Assembly (NCBI RefSeq): GCF_009362845.1 | Contig: NZ_WHNW01000001.1 | Span: 145,889 to 209,888 of the forward strand | Length of the DNA: 64,000 nt | From: Ostreibacterium oceani | GTDB taxonomy: Bacteria > Pseudomonadota > Gammaproteobacteria > Cardiobacteriales > Ostreibacteriaceae | Direction of reading: 5' to 3' | Shown here: in pieces, positions 4,040 to 55,723 of the stretch | Layout: each line of letters begins with the position of its first letter | Position numbering within the stretch: position 1 is the stretch's first letter | The notes under the pieces: generated by a model | Told to the model about the DNA's origin: nothing | The model's database searches: none | Seen by the model: only the letters and a program-made list of their open reading frames with translations | Position numbers and translations under genes: made by a program

Positions 4040-6298
4040 ATGATGAAACCATTGGTAAAAAAACTCATGCAGTGGGCGTTTCGCGTCAAAGTACACGGAC
4101 AATACGAATCGCACCACAAAAAAACACTCATTATCGCAAATCACTCTTCGTTTTTAGATGGATTACTGCTCGCATTGTTTTTGCCGGCTAACCCCGTTTT
4201 TGTTGTCCACAGCACGGTTGAGAAAAGTCGGTTATTCCGCTATTTTTTACGCTATATTGATTATCTTGCCGTTGACCCCAGCCATCCCATGGCAATGAAA
4301 AAAGTCATCAAGCTACTAGACAGCGGACGCCCAGTCGCCATTTTCCCCGAAGGTCGCATCACAACGACTGGGGCATTAATGAAAGTTTATTCAGGTGCTG
4401 CTTTTGCTGCCAGCAAGTCTGAATCGACGATAATCCCTGTGCAAATCACGGGCGCTAAGTATAGTTTTTTCAGTCGTTTACGCGGGCTATTTAACCGCCG
4501 TTTGTTTCCAGCGCTTAGCTTGACCATCTTTCCTGCAACGCAACTCGATCGCCACGAGAATCTGCCCGTCAGAGCGCGCCGAGAGGCCGTCAAAGAAAGC
4601 TTGCACCAACTCATGATGCGGATGGCCGTTGAAGCCCGTCGCCCCATGACGCTGTTTGCCATGCTACTTGATGCTCGCAAAAATCATGGCAAACACACGA
4701 TGATTTATGAAGATGGTATTTCAGACAGCTTAACCTTCAACCAATTAGTGCACAAAGCAGTCGGGCTGTCACATTTACTCAGCAAGCAAACCTTGTCGCC
4801 CCGTGTTGGCGTCTTGTTACCCAATAGCAACGTGCATATAATTACTTTTTTTGCATTACAGCATTTGGGTAAAGTCCCTACCATGATTAATCACACAGCG
4901 GGCATTCGCGCCATCAAGGCAGGGCTGACCGCCACCCAAGCCGACACCATCATTACGTCAAAGCGATTTATTGACAAGGCACAGCTGTCTGAGCTCATCG
5001 CGCAGCTCACCGAATATCAAATCATTTATTTAGAAGACCTTGCCGCGACAGTCACGCCAAAAACCAAACTACAGATTTTTGCCAAACGGCTGATCCCCGC
5101 GCTCACCATGTCACCACAAAGCCCCAACGACGAAGCGGCGATTATTTTTACCTCGGGGTCTGAAGGCTTGCCTAAGGGCGTAGTCCATAGCCATGATAGC
5201 CTGCTCACCAACGCGGCACAAATTCAAGCCATTTATGATTTCCACCCCAAAGACCGCTTTATGATTTGCCTGCCAAATTTCCATGTATTTGGGCTATCGG
5301 GCGGCACGCTACTGCCCATCGTCATTGGGTCGCGTGCATTTTTATACCCCAACCCCTTGCATTATCGTGCCATCCCAGAGATTATCTATGATCGCGGCTG
5401 TACTATTTTGTTAAGCACATCAACGTTTTTAAGTGGCTATGCCCGATTTGCTGACCAGTATGATTTTCATCGGTTACGCTATGTCATTGCTGGCGCTGAA
5501 AAGCTATCGCAAGACGTCATTAAAACCTACCAAGAGAAATTTGGCATCCGCGTCCTAGAAGGTTACGGCACCACAGAAACCGCGCCTGTTATCGCCGCCA
5601 ATACACTTATGGCGCATAAAACAGGCTCGGTCGGCAAACTGCTCCCCAGTATGGGCGCCACACTAACGCCTGTTGAAGGCATTGCGGATGCGGGCAGACT
5701 CATTGTCAGTGGCGATAACGTCATGCTTGGCTACTTAAAGGCAGAACAACCTGGCGTACTCGATGCATCGCCTGTCATTGATGGCAAACGCCAATACGAC
5801 ACGGGTGACATTGCCAACATTGACGATCAAGGGTTCTTAACCATCCGCGGGCGCGCCAAGCGCTTTGCAAAGATTGCTGGGGAAATGGTCTCACTCGATA
5901 CCGCTGAAAAAATCGCAGCGAATGCCGCACCCGACGCCGCTCACGCCATTATTACCCGTGAAGACAAAGCCAAAGGCGAAGCGCTCATTCTATTCACCAC
6001 TGCCGAAAATTTAACTAGAAAACAACTGATTGCATCTGCACAGCAGCTGGGCATTAGCGAATTAGCCGTACCAAAAACCATCCAATCACTGTCCGAAATT
6101 CCCTTACTCGCCAGTGGCAAAACCAACTACGTTCAATTAAAAACGTTGAGTGAACAACCGACACCATCCGACCCGCTCAGCAACCGCTCGGCTGACACGG
6201 CTGAAACGGCTGACTCGGCGAACCCAGCGAACCCAACCGCCGATGCATTAATCAACAACACCCCAATCAAAACCCCAATTAAAACCCATGTAAACTAA
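4040..6298 (+). CDS. aas: Bifunctional 2-acyl-GPE acyltransferase / acyl-ACP synthetase
   Basis: Reacylates lysophosphatidylethanolamine at the inner membrane. The C-terminal ligase activates a fatty acid with ATP on ACP and the N-terminal acyltransferase transfers it. The PlsC-type domain spans about residues 1-200, with the HX4D motif NHSSFLD (H35, D40) and FPEGR (E104). An AMP-binding domain follows, with the P-loop FTSGSEGLPKGVVHSH and the later YGTTE and YDTGD motifs. At 752 residues it is somewhat longer than E. coli Aas (719). The surplus is a low-complexity tail rich in T, A, D and N (from about residue 715). Start chosen at ATG-ATG after AGGA. lplT follows, so the pair forms the lysophospholipid import and repair system, in the reverse order to E. 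coli (lplT-aas). Confidence 0.93.
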   Translation: MMKPLVKKLMQWAFRVKVHGQYESHHKKTLIIANHSSFLDGLLLALFLPANPVFVVHSTVEKSRLFRYFLRYIDYLAVDPSHPMAMKKVIKLLDSGRPVAIFPEGRITTTGALMKVYSGAAFAASKSESTIIPVQITGAKYSFFSRLRGLFNRRLFPALSLTIFPATQLDRHENLPVRARREAVKESLHQLMMRMAVEARRPMTLFAMLLDARKNHGKHTMIYEDGISDSLTFNQLVHKAVGLSHLLSKQTLSPRVGVLLPNSNVHIITFFALQHLGKVPTMINHTAGIRAIKAGLTATQADTIITSKRFIDKAQLSELIAQLTEYQIIYLEDLAATVTPKTKLQIFAKRLIPALTMSPQSPNDEAAIIFTSGSEGLPKGVVHSHDSLLTNAAQIQAIYDFHPKDRFMICLPNFHVFGLSGGTLLPIVIGSRAFLYPNPLHYRAIPEIIYDRGCTILLSTSTFLSGYARFADQYDFHRLRYVIAGAEKLSQDVIKTYQEKFGIRVLEGYGTTETAPVIAANTLMAHKTGSVGKLLPSMGATLTPVEGIADAGRLIVSGDNVMLGYLKAEQPGVLDASPVIDGKRQYDTGDIANIDDQGFLTIRGRAKRFAKIAGEMVSLDTAEKIAANAAPDAAHAIITREDKAKGEALILFTTAENLTRKQLIASAQQLGISELAVPKTIQSLSEIPLLASGKTNYVQLKTLSEQPTPSDPLSNRSADTAETADSANPANPTADALINNTPIKTPIKTHVN

Positions 6299-49306: not shown

Positions 49307-50251
49307 ATGACAACAACAATGAGTTTCCAAGCAATAATTTTACGATTACAGCAATTTTGGTCAGAGAAAGGCTGCCTCGTCTTACAGCCTTATGATGTCG
49401 AGGTGGGCGCAGGGACGTTTCATACGGCTACTTTTTTAAAGGCGATTGGGCCAGAGCCTTGGAATGCCGCTTATGTGCAGCCATCACGGCGCCCAACCGA
49501 TGGACGCTATGGCAATAATCCAAACCGATTACAGCATTACTACCAATTCCAAGTCGTGATGAAGCCTTCGCCAGATGCCTTTCAAGAAATGTATCTGGAC
49601 TCGTTAGCCGCGATTGGTATCTCGCCACTAACCCACGACGTGCGCTTTGTCGAAGACAACTGGGAATCCCCCACGCTGGGCGCTTGGGGTCTCGGTTGGG
49701 AAGTGTGGGTAAACGGCATGGAAATTTCTCAATTCACCTATTTTCAACAAGCAGGCGGTATGGAATGCAAGCCCGTGATGGGCGAAATTACTTATGGCCT
49801 TGAACGCCTTGCGATGTATATCCAAGGGGTGGACAGCGTTTATGATTTATTATGGAACACCACACCACAAGGCGATGTCACTTATGGCGATGTTTTTTTA
49901 CAAAACGAAGTCGAACAATCCACGTATAATTTTGAACAAGCCAATGTAGAAGAATTATTCCGCCAATTTGAATTCGCCGAAAAAGAAGCCGTTCGCCTAT
50001 CGGCACTCATGCTCGCATTGCCCGCGTATGAACAAGTCCTCAAAGCCTCGCATTTGTTTAATTTATTAGATGCACGCGCCGCCGTGTCCGTCACGGAACG
50101 CCAACGCTATTTACTACGCGTGCGCCACATTGCCAAAGCCGCCGCCGAAGCGTATTACGAATCTCGCAAAGCACTGGGCTTTCCCTTGTGCCGCGGTGAA
50201 TTTGCCCCCTTAGCAGCCGCATTATTGGCCGAAACGGAGGTATCAACATGA
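49307..50251 (+). CDS. glyQ: Glycine--tRNA ligase alpha subunit
   Basis: 314 residues, full length. Catalytic subunit of the bacterial alpha2beta2 GlyRS. Class II motifs: [64 protein letters not shown], and [25 protein letters not shown]. It overlaps glyS by 4 bases (ATGA), so the two subunits are translationally coupled. Confidence 0.98.
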
Positions 50252-52389
50252 GTCAATCTATGGGGCAATCTACGGGACAATCTGCGGGGCAATCTATGAA
50301 TGAATCCACGTTATTAATCGAATTGGGCGTCGCCGAATTACCAACTGCCGCCGTTGAACAGCTATCACAAGCCTTTTTAACGCAAATCAAGCATTGCTTA
50401 GACGAAAAAGGCATTCGCTATGGCAGCGCCAAACGCTTTGCCACTGCTAGACGCCTAGCCGTGCAAGTGCACAACATCGCCGCAACCCAAGCCGAACAAC
50501 ACATTGAAAAACGCGGACCTGCACTAAAAGCCGCCAAAGACGCCGATGGCAACTGGACCAAAGCCGCCAGCGGATTTGCTGCGTCTTGTGGTGTGGCAGC
50601 CGATGATTTACACATCGACAGCACCCCCAAGGGTGACTGGCTGTTTTTTCGCCAAACGGTCGCTGGCAAACCGACTGTCGCATTAATCCCTGATTTATTT
50701 CAAGCGGCTTTGGCCGATTTACCGATTGCAAAACGTATGCGCTGGGGCAGCCGTGACGAGAGCTTTGTTCGCCCTGTCTTGACCTTGGTCATGATGCTAG
50801 ACGATACCGTCATTGACGCCGAGTTATTCGGTGTGAAATCAGGCAATACCACACTAGGGCATCGCTTTCATGGCGATAAAACACGCACCATTCTGCACGC
50901 CAACGCGTATGAAAAAAACCTCGCCGATAGCTTTGTCATTGCCGATATCGACAAACGCCGTGAAACGATTGTTCAGCAAGTCAACGCGCTAGTTGCCACC
51001 ATTGATGCCGCACACGGTGCAAGCCCTGTTATCGACGCAGGCACACTGGATGAAGTCAACGCCCTTGTTGAGCACCCCGTTGCGATTTTGGGCGAATTTG
51101 ACGCGCGCTACCTGCGCATTCCGCAGGAAGTCCTCATCAAAACCATGCAGGATAACCAAAAATACTTTGCTGTGGTGGATTCAGAGAATAAGATTTTGCC
51201 GTATTTTGTCACGATTGCCAATATCGCATCAGAACACCCTGATATCGTCCGGGTCGGTAACCAGCGCGTCATTGAACCGCGTTTTGCTGATGCCGAATTT
51301 TTCTGGGAAAATGACCAAAAAACCCCGTTAATTGCTAGGCGCGATGCGTTAAAACACGTCGTTTACCAAGCAAAATTAGGCAGCGTATTTGACCGCAGCG
51401 AACGCATGACAACCATCGCCCAATGGCTTGCCGAGCAATTAGACTATAATCGCGATTATGCTCGCCGTGCCGCCCAATTAGCCAAATGTGATTTAACCAC
51501 CGAAATGGTCTTTGAATTTGGCGAACTGCAAGGTGTCATCGGTCAATACTACGCAAAAAACGATGGCGAACCGCACGAGGTCACCACAGCGATACGCGAA
51601 CATTACCTACCAAAATTCGCAGGCGATGCACTCCCCAAGACACAAACGGGGCTAGTCATTGCACTAGCCGATAAAATCGAAAACCTAATCGGTGGTTTTG
51701 CGGTCGGTGCTAAACCAACAGGCACCAAAGATGCCTATGGATTGCGCCGAGCCACTATTGGCATCATTCGACTACTGGATAACGCGGCACTCGATTTGGC
51801 ACTCGCTGATTTATTAGCCTTCGCTGCCCAAGCTTTTGACCCCGCATTAAGCGCCGAGAAACAACTAAACGATATTCAATCCTACATTGACGAGCGTTTA
51901 AAAGGCTACTATCACGACCAAGGCATTCGCTACGATGTGATCGAGGCTGTCCTTGCGGTAAAACCTGCGTATACCCATGATGCAACGGCACGCTGTCAGG
52001 CGTTGATGGCATTTTTACCCCACGAAGCAGCGGACAATCTATTTGCCGCCAACAAGCGTATCAGCAATATCCTCAAAAAAACCACCGTCACACAATCTGC
52101 CGTTGATACGCAAAAACTCACCGAAACCGCGGAAAAAACACTCGCGGCAGCAACCAGCCACGTTAAATCACAGCTCAATGCCGCTATTGCCCAGCAGGAT
52201 TATGCCAGCGCCCTCAATATCCTATCGGTATTACGCCAACCGCTGGATGACTTTTTTGACCAAGTCATGGTCATGTCAGACGATGACAGCGAAAGAAATA
52301 ATCGCCTAGCGCTATTGGCAGACATCCGCGCATTGTTTTTGCAAATCGCTGATGTATCTACCATTGATAATTCGGTGGGTAATGGCTGA
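50248..52389 (+). CDS. glyS: Glycine--tRNA ligase beta subunit
   Basis: 713 residues (E. coli 689). Binds tRNA-Gly and supports the alpha subunit. The fold begins at [36 protein letters not shown] and NQKYFAVVD follow, with an anticodon-binding domain at the end. The first 19 residues are an extra repeat ([16 protein letters not shown]) coded by a 12-bp tandem repeat absent from usual GlyS. It could be a start extended by slippage. The ATG at 50296 (MNESTLL) would give a normal protein, but the ATGA overlap favours the listed start. Confidence 0.97.
50254..50304. repeat. 12-bp tandem repeat at the 5' end of glyS, 4 copies
   Basis: Units CAATCTATGGGG, CAATCTACGGGA, CAATCTGCGGGG and CAATCTATGAAT follow each other in frame, encoding the QS(M/T/A)G repeat. 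Confidence 0.9.
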
Positions 52390-52479
52390 TGGATAATCTG
52401 CTCAAAAAACTGTATTAAAATTGTCATATGAAAAACCATAGTCTTTTTGTAACACAAAAAAAATGATAGACTTTGACTA

Positions 52480-53763
52480 ATGAAAAATATTAAAGTTATA
52501 GAGTTATTTGCAGGTGTTGGTGGTTTTCGGCTTGGACTAGAAGGCTGGAATGGAAAGTCACCATCCTCAAAATACAAAAAATCAATAAAAACAAACTATA
52601 AAGTGATTTGGAGTAACCAATGGGAGCCCTCCACAAAAATACAGCATGCCTCATTTGTTTACGAAAGCCGTTTTGGTAAACATGGACATTCAAATCAAGA
52701 TATTTCACTAGTTAAGTCTTCAGAAATTCCAGACCATGATTTATTAGTCGGTGGTTTTCCATGTCAGGATTACTCTGTCGCAACTACTTTAAAGAACTCT
52801 AAAGGACTTATCGGCAAAAAAGGAGTTTTATGGTGGAGCATTCACAGAATCATCGAAGAAAAACAAAATAAGCCAAAATTTTTGATACTAGAGAATGTTG
52901 ATCGGTTACTTATTTCTCCTTCTGGACAAAAAGGTCGTGATTTTGCCATTATCTTACAGAGCCTGAACGAATTGGGCTATGCAGTTGAATGGCGAGTAAT
53001 CAATGCAGCTGATTTTGGAATGCCACAACGGCGAAGACGAATATTCATCTTAGCCTACCTAAAGGAAACGGGCATTCAAAAGAGTCTAGCGCGAATGACG
53101 CCCACACAGTGGATTTTAAACCAAGGGGCATTAGCGAAGGCGTTTCCAATAACACCTGAAAAAATGCTGTTTCCAACAGAATTCACATTAGAGGGTGACA
53201 TTGTTTCAATATCTGATAACTTTAATCATAACAACTTTGCTAGACCTTTTGAAAACACAGGCATAATGATTGATGGCTTGGTTACTACGATAAGAACAAG
53301 ACCAAACTATAAGGGCAATTACATTCTATTGAAAGACCTTATTCAAAAAGAAGAAGTTCCCTCTGATTTTTATATCGATAAACATTCTATTGAAAGATGG
53401 GCTTATTTAAAAGGCTCTAAAAAAGAAATAAGAAAAAATGCTCAAGGTTTTGAATATCACTACAGCGAAGGCGGTATGACTTTCCCAGATTCACTAAACA
53501 AACCATCTCGAACAATAATCACAGGAGAAGGCGGGAAATCACCTTCAAGATTTAAACACGTTGTTGTTTCGGATAGAGGATTACGTAGACTAACGCCAAT
53601 TGAATTGGAAAGACTGAATATGTTTCCCGATAATCACACAAAAATTGATGGGATTACCGACACGAAACGAGCATTTTTTATGGGGAATGCTTTGGTAGTC
53701 GGAGTAATCGAAAAAATCGGAGAAGAACTTTATAAACAAATAAATCAGTTTGAATATGCTTGA
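52480..53763 (+). CDS. DNA cytosine-5 methyltransferase (Sau3AI-type system)
   Basis: 427 residues. Ordered m5C motifs: I IELFAGVGGFRLGLEGW (8-23), IV GGFPCQDYSVA with catalytic C95, VI LENVDRLL (E138), VIII QRRRRIFILAYL, and late GNALVVGVIEKIGEEL (IX/X region). The variable target-recognition part is between VIII and IX. The linked endonuclease is MutH/Sau3AI-like, so the site may be GATC with 5-methyl on C, by inference. The gene is AT-rich compared with its neighbours. No ribosome site precedes the ATG, and a -10-like TAGACT 7 bases before it raises leaderless translation. Its 3' end overlaps the endonuclease by 8 bases. Confidence 0.92.
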   Translation: MKNIKVIELFAGVGGFRLGLEGWNGKSPSSKYKKSIKTNYKVIWSNQWEPSTKIQHASFVYESRFGKHGHSNQDISLVKSSEIPDHDLLVGGFPCQDYSVATTLKNSKGLIGKKGVLWWSIHRIIEEKQNKPKFLILENVDRLLISPSGQKGRDFAIILQSLNELGYAVEWRVINAADFGMPQRRRRIFILAYLKETGIQKSLARMTPTQWILNQGALAKAFPITPEKMLFPTEFTLEGDIVSISDNFNHNNFARPFENTGIMIDGLVTTIRTRPNYKGNYILLKDLIQKEEVPSDFYIDKHSIERWAYLKGSKKEIRKNAQGFEYHYSEGGMTFPDSLNKPSRTIITGEGGKSPSRFKHVVVSDRGLRRLTPIELERLNMFPDNHTKIDGITDTKRAFFMGNALVVGVIEKIGEELYKQINQFEYA

Positions 53764-55162
53764 TATTACTTCGGCAGATTCAATTATTGATTTTGCCAAA
53801 CTGCTAAAAAACCAAACTTTACGAGAAGTTTGTGGTAAAGAAATTGAAAAACACGGCTACAAAGGAAAAGGCAATTTTGGTCAAATTTTAGAAAAATTCT
53901 ATTTCGGTTATGAACCTAATTCTGATGCCGAACCTGATTTTAAAGAAGCAGGAATTGAACTAAAATCTAGTCCTTTAAAAACATTGAGAAATGGAGAATT
54001 ACGCTCAAAAGAAAGATTGGTTTTAAATATCATAAATTATTTAGAAGTTCATAAAGAGGATTTTGAAACCAGTTCATTTTGGAAGAAAAATGCTCATTTA
54101 CTTTTGGTGTTTTATCTGCACGATAAAGATTTAGACCTTCTTGATTACCTTATTAAATTGGTTGACGGTTGGCAATACCCTAACGAAGATTTGAAAATTA
54201 TCAAACACGATTGGGAAACAATAAACCAAAAAATAAAAGACGGTAAAGCACACGAATTATCGGAAGGAGATACATTTTATCTTGGAGCTTGTACAAAAGG
54301 TTCAACAGCCTTAAAGTCATATCGTGACCAACCTTTCAATGTTGAAAAAGCAAAACAAAGAGCATATTCGCTTAAACAAGGTTATGTAAATCACATAATA
54401 GCAAATATCGCTCAAGAAGAAACTGCGGTTTACGGAAAGATAATTGATCAACCCGAAATTCTTGATTTAGTCCAATCAATTGAAGATGTTGTAATTTCAA
54501 AATTTCAACCGTTTTATGGAAAATCAGCAGAGCACATTGAACAAGAATTAGGCTTGGAATTAAATCAAAAAGCTAAAAGTTATTTTGCCAACCTTACAAA
54601 TACAATTCTTGGAATTGAGTTAAATCAAAAAATAGCGGAGTTTGAAAAAGCAGATATTCGAGTAAAAACAATTAGACTTAAAGAAAATAATTTACCGAAA
54701 GAAGATGTTTCATTTCCAACATTTAAATATAAAGAATTTGTTCGAACAGATTGGGAAGATTCCGATTTTAAGAACATATTGGAAAGTAAATTTTTCTTTG
54801 TGTTTTACCAATTTGAAGGCGAAGATTTGATTTTACGAAAAGTAAAGTTTTGGAATATGCCACATTCTGATATTCTTGAAGCAAAAGACGTTTGGGAAAA
54901 AACGATAAAGACAGTTTCAAATGGAGGAATCGTAAAAGAAATAACCGACAAAGGAATAAGAAAGACAAATTTCCCAAAGAAAACCGAAAACAGAGTGAGC
55001 CACGTTAGACCACACGCTAAAAATGCAGCAGACACATATGAATTACCTGTTGCGGATAAACTAACGGGATTGACTGAATTTACAAAACATTGTTTTTGGC
55101 TTAACGCAAGTTACGTGAAAGATGAAATATACTTGAAAAATTCGTCACCTAATTTAACTTAA
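53756..55162 (+). CDS. Sau3AI/MutH-family type II restriction endonuclease
   Basis: 468 residues from the ATG at 53756, inside the methyltransferase end (ATGCTTGA overlap); a TTG 6 bases earlier is less likely. The N-terminal MutH-like domain has GKGNFGQILEKFYFG and the metal site D61, E68, K70 (EPDFKEAGIELKSS). Sau3AI has a second, inactive MutH-like domain at the C-terminus. The last half here (WNMPHSDILEAKDVWEKTI, FPKKTENRVSHVRPHAKNAADTYELP) fits that layout, and the length is near Sau3AI (489). It is AT-rich, with adenine-rich codons. Expected to cut unmethylated GATC, which needs testing. Confidence 0.9.
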   Translation: MLDITSADSIIDFAKLLKNQTLREVCGKEIEKHGYKGKGNFGQILEKFYFGYEPNSDAEPDFKEAGIELKSSPLKTLRNGELRSKERLVLNIINYLEVHKEDFETSSFWKKNAHLLLVFYLHDKDLDLLDYLIKLVDGWQYPNEDLKIIKHDWETINQKIKDGKAHELSEGDTFYLGACTKGSTALKSYRDQPFNVEKAKQRAYSLKQGYVNHIIANIAQEETAVYGKIIDQPEILDLVQSIEDVVISKFQPFYGKSAEHIEQELGLELNQKAKSYFANLTNTILGIELNQKIAEFEKADIRVKTIRLKENNLPKEDVSFPTFKYKEFVRTDWEDSDFKNILESKFFFVFYQFEGEDLILRKVKFWNMPHSDILEAKDVWEKTIKTVSNGGIVKEITDKGIRKTNFPKKTENRVSHVRPHAKNAADTYELPVADKLTGLTEFTKHCFWLNASYVKDEIYLKNSSPNLT

Positions 55163-55171
55163 ATTTGCATC

Positions 55172-55723
55172 ATGAAACTCGTCATCCTAGACCGTGATGG
55201 TGTCATTAACCAAGACCTCGGGCATTACGTGACTTGTCCTTCGGCGTTTGTCTTTAACGAAGGCGTAGTTGAGGCGATTGCGCTGCTAAAACGCCACGGC
55301 TATCTCGTTGCCATTGCGACCAACCAAGCGGGTATCGAACGCGGGTTTTACACACACCAAACGCTGGCTGCCATTCATCACCGAATGCTACAAACCATTC
55401 GCCAAGGCGGCGGTGATATTGACCGAATTGTCTATTGTCCTAGCTATGACGACAATCATCCGTGGCGCAAGCCAAACGCGGGGATGCTGCGTGAGATTTT
55501 AGACGGCTATGGCATCCAAGCAACGCATGCCGTTTTTATCGGTGATACCGTGCGTGATATGCAAGCAGGCGATTGTGTTGACTGCCAGCTCATCATGGTC
55601 AAAACGGGCAAAGGTCTTACCGAATACCCCTTGTTACCAACACCATTGCGTGATAAAGTGCGATTAGCGACGCATTTATTGCAGGCATGTGAGTGGCTTG
55701 TCGATCGCAACGCAGTCGATTGA
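55172..55723 (+). CDS. gmhB: D-glycero-beta-D-manno-heptose-1,7-bisphosphate 7-phosphatase
   Basis: 183 residues, HAD phosphatase in ADP-heptose synthesis for lipopolysaccharide inner core. Motif I is ILDRDGVINQD (D7 and D9), motif II is in AIATNQAGIERG, and motif IV is FIGDTVRDMQAGD. The zinc cysteine cluster of E. coli GmhB is not present (YCPSYDDNHPWRKPNAGML instead). It starts 9 bases after the endonuclease stop. In related genomes gmhB follows glyS directly, so the restriction pair sits inside that cluster. Confidence 0.92.
   Translation: MKLVILDRDGVINQDLGHYVTCPSAFVFNEGVVEAIALLKRHGYLVAIATNQAGIERGFYTHQTLAAIHHRMLQTIRQGGGDIDRIVYCPSYDDNHPWRKPNAGMLREILDGYGIQATHAVFIGDTVRDMQAGDCVDCQLIMVKTGKGLTEYPLLPTPLRDKVRLATHLLQACEWLVDRNAVD

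Follow-up and report, generated by a model that had tools for sequence, protein, structure and literature searches.

An apparently mosaic Sau3AI-family restriction-modification gene pair of probable Bacteroidota descent between glyS and gmhB of Ostreibacterium oceani

Results

The two genes located between glyS and gmhB in a 64,000-nucleotide stretch of the Ostreibacterium oceani genome (hereafter the window, whose numbering is used throughout) are best explained, with a probability of about 0.8, as a Sau3AI-family pair of Bacteroidota descent that was joined by recombination from at least two parent types, A and B, and that lacks the HTH gene present upstream of most relatives. The history of this methyltransferase gene (M) and endonuclease gene (R) is neither single nor clean, which makes it unusual. 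The features of the locus are collected in Table 1.

Table 1. Positions in the window of the gene pair, its neighbors, and the segments distinguished within it.
Feature	Position	Strand	Evidence
glyS, left neighbor, intact	50248..52389	+	TIGR00211 815 bits, profile 1-684 of 684
AT-rich gap, 90 bases, 5' of M	52390..52479	.	Without HTH gene similarity, promoter-like or terminator-like site
M, predicted C5 cytosine DNA methyltransferase, 427 aa, apparently chimeric	52480..53763	+	PF00145 2e-65; TIGR00675 244 bits
Mosaic segment 1, M residues 1-342 (catalytic core, target-recognition region), B-type	52480..53505	+	Informative sites, tree, DNA identity
Putative first recombination break interval, in the conserved block around S343-V361	53506..53565	+	Informative sites, alignment, model loop
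Mosaic segment 2, M end (from residue 363) and R start, A1-type	53566..54106	+	96.9% DNA identity to L036 over 53530-54106
R, predicted Sau3AI-family restriction endonuclease, 468 aa from ATG	53756..55162	+	NF040973 549 bits; PDB 4pxg 1e-74
Mosaic segment 3, inside R, A2-type	54115..54589	+	DNA identity 94.3% to L040, 81.5% to L036
Mosaic segment 4, R end, A1-type	54593..55138	+	DNA identity 90.5% to L036 and L038
R end, seven extra residues and stop	55139..55162	+	Similarity to most A copies ends at their stop codon
gmhB-like gene, right neighbor, 9 bases past R	55172..55723	+	ORF list; 168 bits (cut-off 178)

Identity of the gene pair

The R protein passed the cut-off of the curated NCBI model NF040973 (549 against 300 bits), and its residues 30-459 matched the solved Sau3AI chain 4pxg over about 430 residues in a two-domain layout, the C-terminal domain also matching PDB entry 2reu. 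The Sau3AI of these entries, from Staphylococcus aureus, is likewise a two-domain enzyme with a C5 methyltransferase as its partner, the role played here by M (PF00145, TIGR00675); however, its sequence is distant from that of R, and the M in the window appears to be a natural chimera in a proteobacterium. Residues D61, E68, and K70 of R, presumably catalytic as judged by MutH and Sau3AI work, were identical in all 70 aligned R rows, and the C5 methyltransferase motifs of M were kept in the 70-row alignment. By family membership, the locus is thus a Sau3AI-family type II restriction-modification system of an ordinary kind, as an earlier note on this DNA had proposed, and GATC is the probable target of both enzymes. 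The kinship with MutH claimed in the same note was seen in a match of R to the Pfam MutH model; that R is the mismatch-repair MutH itself is nevertheless practically out of the question, considering scores of a quarter to a third of the cut-offs (TIGR02248, 52 against 229.9 bits; PRK05070, 72 against 243 bits), the two-domain Sau3AI match, and a genome in which no Dam was found.

Both reading frames are open, and they overlap by 8 bases, as had been stated, when R is read from ATG, or by 14 bases when it is read from the alternative TTG start at 53750. The AT-richness that had been noticed was also confirmed: M had a GC content of 36.6% in its first part and 37.1% in the remainder, and R one of 31.6%, versus 45.3% for the genome (461 kb), and GC3 was 0.22-0.30 in the pair versus 0.47-0.52 in the flanking genes.

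Insertion site and distribution in the order

The pair was correctly placed by the earlier note in the glyQS-gmhB-plsC cluster, between the end of glyS at 52389 and the start of gmhB at 55172. The genes on either side appear complete: the NCBIfam cut-offs were exceeded by glyQ and glyS and narrowly missed by gmhB (168 against 178 bits) and plsC (96 against 103 bits). Among 23 relatives of the order with a good gmhB match, glyS adjoined gmhB in 16, the two genes being separated by -8 to 18 bases in 10, 83-261 in 5, and 698 in 1, and in the remaining 7 no glyS was found within the stretch examined around gmhB. Many members of the order share the close junction, so the pair was added there. Of 32 genomes from the order, that of the host was the only one in which a MutH/Sau3AI-type protein was detected; the other 31 also had no match to M above 43% identity.

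No mobile-element gene was recognized beside the pair on reading the ORFs listed for 46.6-60 kb, in agreement with the earlier note, and the integrase, HTH_17, and Rep genes of the element at a Bacteroidota comparison locus (L036, below) had no match in the window. The host is a proteobacterium according to the similarity of glyS and glyA and the gene order: the best matches of glyS in the plasmid collection were from Acinetobacter (42%), and glyA showed about 70% DNA identity to that of E. coli.

In three Campylobacterota loci (L110, L111, and L114, with M starting near 4739, 4730, and 4739, respectively), a Sau3AI-type M lies directly 3' of glyQ, like glyS a gene for glycyl-tRNA synthetase; a glyQ/glyS match occurred only in these three among the best 80 of 107 loci. 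The resemblance to the position of M after glyS in the window is possibly a coincidence.

Relatives of the gene pair

The comparison loci were picked by similarity to R, as the best 80 of 107 R relatives obtained from a genome-contig scan, and 69 of them with complete pairs were compared in full. The nearest R relatives among the best 80 (83-90% identical) were from Flavobacteriaceae and other Bacteroidota; further relatives among them came from a few other Pseudomonadota, Campylobacterota, and one Fibrobacter record, so that spread across phyla is not confined to this host. Two groups of Bacteroidota Sau3AI-type loci served as references, namely, group A (L036-L052) and group B (L072-L108).

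Carriage of close relatives on plasmids or phages was rejected, all matches being below 60% identity; viral contigs yielded one M match at 71% and no R. At L036 (229-7386), the restriction-modification genes are preceded by genes for a tyrosine integrase, an HTH_17 protein, and Rep_1, an arrangement reminiscent of an integrative element. A donor mobile element common to the relatives was not borne out, the L036 gene set being present in no other locus among the best 80 of 107.

Several comparison loci departed from the simple M-R arrangement. L048 carries a 389-residue ORF without a Pfam match between M and R (4821-5990), and the M-R gaps of L054 and L099 are similar in size. The pair of L056 (4346-7281) is broken, M similarity ending past residue 166 and R similarity starting at residue 36, with an HTH-like ORF on the opposite strand between them. 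A Mangrovimonas genome contains two Sau3AI-type pairs on different contigs (L039 and L059), which could recombine.

Mosaic structure

Similarity to the two groups changed within M. Group A copies were 82-90% identical to the window in R and merely 62-66% in the first 340 residues of M; group B copies were 61-68% identical in R and 69-76% in the M start. At the DNA level, segment 1 was 75.7% identical to L080 (group B) and 66% to L036 (group A). In total, 126 A/B-informative sites were identified, of which 17 matching neither type were dropped. The window carried the B state at 31 of 35 scored sites in M residues 1-342, the A state at 10 of 10 in residues 363-420, and the A state at 60 of 64 in R, a split that none of 1000 permutations equaled. 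Sites separating two A sub-lineages, A1 and A2, divided the A-type part further: the A1 state was found at 45 of 48 sites in segment 2, 3 of 54 in segment 3, and 51 of 59 in segment 4 (0 of 100 permutations as good).

The trees gave the same assignment. In the M start tree, the window row fell within a set containing 15 B rows (support 96), and a clade of the window with A was rejected (dlnL 98.8, p-AU 0.019). In the R tree, it fell within an A-containing clade (support 100), and a clade with B was rejected (dlnL 75.6, p-AU 0.0047). The M end tree comprised 78 columns, in which the window row is identical to L038; p-AU for the window with A was 0.21, and because of the identity to A rows the corresponding test with B is uninformative. 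Across the three R segments, L036/L038 and L039/L040/L042 remained stable groups and the window row shifted between them, indicating that the pair in the window is the recombinant.

Such a flip was seen in none of the 69 relatives with complete pairs (from the best 80 of 107). The A-likeness of the three window parts was 0.11, 1.00, and 0.94, respectively; the parts agreed in type in 66 of the 69 relatives, and a spread above 0.3 was limited to L071, L099, and L103. In 397 genomes of one Bacteroidota family, full-length matches to the M start reached at best 77%, and since the nearest B copy among the best 80 of 107 is just 76% identical, the B parent is evidently unsampled.

The first break falls at M residues 343-361, a long, almost invariant block in the best-conserved part of M. 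An alignment with HhaI, which covers M residues 3-201 and 368-422, places this block between the target-recognition region and motif IX, and in the predicted M model (mean pLDDT 76.7, pTM 0.83) residues 345-360 form a low-confidence loop. A crossover at this block leaves both halves whole.

Taken together, the pair reads as having been recombined from three or more parent lineages of Bacteroidota. The group A loci (up to 90% identity in R) and group B loci (up to 76% identity in the first part of M), both among the best 80 of 107, are of one parent type throughout and mostly have the upstream HTH gene, unlike the window. The earlier note had spoken of a clean acquisition that left both flanks intact; the flanks are indeed intact, but the acquired DNA is not a clean single unit. 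In Helicobacter pylori, methyltransferase gene parts are reportedly exchanged by recombination as well; this domain movement is said to alter specificity, whereas the specificity of the window M was probably kept because both parents are Sau3AI-type. No chimeric Sau3AI-type methyltransferase, and no description of this locus, was found in the titles and abstract openings of the open-licence literature.

Missing upstream HTH gene and expression

An HTH gene of about 102 residues, whose end lies over the M start, was present in 56 of the 69 relatives (one match being cut by a contig end), A rows accounting for 20 (of 21), B rows for 28 (of 31), and other rows for 8 (of 17). Two versions of it exceeded Pfam HTH cut-offs. 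It was absent from the window, and positions 52390-52479 showed no similarity to the versions of ten relatives; queries with the A and B versions also found none in the host genome, in searches run without a positive control. As 13 of the 69 relatives likewise had no match, its absence is not peculiar to the window. The position of the gene recalls that of C proteins, and by this analogy it may act in a C-like manner. C proteins delay endonuclease expression, according to PMC3850674. The gap between glyS and M (52390-52479) yielded neither a sigma-70-like promoter nor a terminator-like site, so read-through from glyQS is possible.

GATC depletion, Dam, and MutH

GATC is strongly under-represented in the host genome, with a ratio to the second-order Markov expectation of 0.29 (526 observed versus 1841 expected in 461 kb) and a Kr of 0.59 (461 kb), the threshold for under-representation being 0.78 in Rusinov et al. 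(PMC4687349). In 10 relatives (40 kb each), Kr was 0.92-1.03 in 8, one of which (G005) had a low Markov measure of 0.63, and 0.43 and 0.58 in two of one genus (G013 and G015), which are also depleted and have no Sau3AI protein. G013 had no MutH-family or D12 match. G015 (L218) carries, side by side, a D12 methylase and another methylase of N6/N4 type together with a small nuclease-like ORF that weakly matches PD-(D/E)XK.

Neither Dam nor another or stand-alone MutH was found in the host genome; the sole D12-type match, located beside a coaD-like gene, reads as the 16S rRNA methyltransferase RsmD. Deamination of m5C was rejected as the cause of GATC loss, as the excess of GATT (1.15) was not above that of GATA (1.23) and GATG (1.27). 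CCGG (Kr 0.28) and GGCC (Kr 0.70) were likewise under-represented in the host (461 kb), hinting at past or present systems for those sites. A Prevotella paper (PMC5608340) deals mainly with an adenine-methylating GATC system and has no bearing on this pair.

PMC4687349 associates strong site avoidance both with long-lived systems and with systems since lost. The allele in the window looks younger than the GATC depletion because its A1 segment is 97% identical to the Bacteroidota copy L036. This combination fits either an older resident system that was overwritten in place or an earlier system that was lost.

Discussion

The family, position, and mosaic structure of the pair, its missing upstream gene, and the GATC depletion were observed; we infer its GATC specificity, activity, and mode of expression, and the order of events. 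The M protein would methylate the cytosine of GATC and R would cut unmethylated GATC in incoming DNA, as in the family. The DNA probably descends from Bacteroidota; at least two parent types recombined, B giving most of M, and A, with two sub-lineages, giving the M end and R. The first break lies in the conserved M stretch between the target-recognition part and motif IX, so M stayed whole and R kept its A-type 8-base overlap. The unit in the host extends from the M start to the R end, between glyS and gmhB, without the HTH gene, and expression would depend on glyQS read-through, with R coupled to M via the overlap.

Where the parts were joined is a separate matter. Transfer of a mosaic that had already formed in Bacteroidota, with the GATC depletion left behind by a GATC system that the host once had and then lost, has a chance somewhat short of even. 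The A and B types co-occur in Flavobacteriaceae, and G013 is depleted with no MutH-family or D12 match; site avoidance can also outlast lost restriction systems, as described in PMC4687349. However, the same B/A joint was found in 0 of 69 relatives (from the best 80 of 107), and the closest M start in the 397 genomes of one Bacteroidota family reached only the 77% given above.

It is unlikely, though worth consideration, that the M start is instead a remnant of an older resident GATC system and that incoming A-type DNA overwrote the M end and R by recombination. GATC would then already have been protected by the resident M, so the incoming R would have needed no control gene, and the control gene is indeed missing. 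GATC is strongly depleted though the A1 segment is 97% identical to L036, with 4 silent and no replacement differences over 65 codons of the M end, and the GC3 of the M start (0.30) is above that of 29 of 31 B copies. Against this, the shift in GC3 is weak and shared by the M end (0.29), the signal being too weak for dating amelioration of the pair; moreover, no traces of any other system were detected. Both A and B types occur in Bacteroidota, one genome of which has two A copies, so the joining may have happened there. The specific sequence in which a resident GATC methyltransferase gave immunity and flavobacterial DNA replaced the M end and R via the conserved motif is a doubtful proposition.

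It is very improbable that the chimeric M has an altered or lost specificity and that the locus is a decaying relic: the recombination lies close to the recognition part of M and the control gene is missing, but both parent types pair with a Sau3AI-family R, all catalytic motifs are kept, both frames are open, the predicted M model is coherent (pTM 0.83), and an active restriction enzyme with an inactive methyltransferase should be lethal.

Recombination of methyltransferase genes is usually discussed as a route to changed specificity. In the Sau3AI-family pair described here, it joins parts of two systems whose specificity is probably the same, and the DNA has moved across phyla. A restriction pair that is AT-rich and flanked by intact genes may thus be the product of more than one acquisition event. 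If in-place exchange is true, a restriction enzyme could be acquired in the absence of its control gene, and a young allele would stand beside an old signature of GATC avoidance. As a recombinant without the gene thought to time expression, the pair offers a testable case of establishment or replacement without a control gene.
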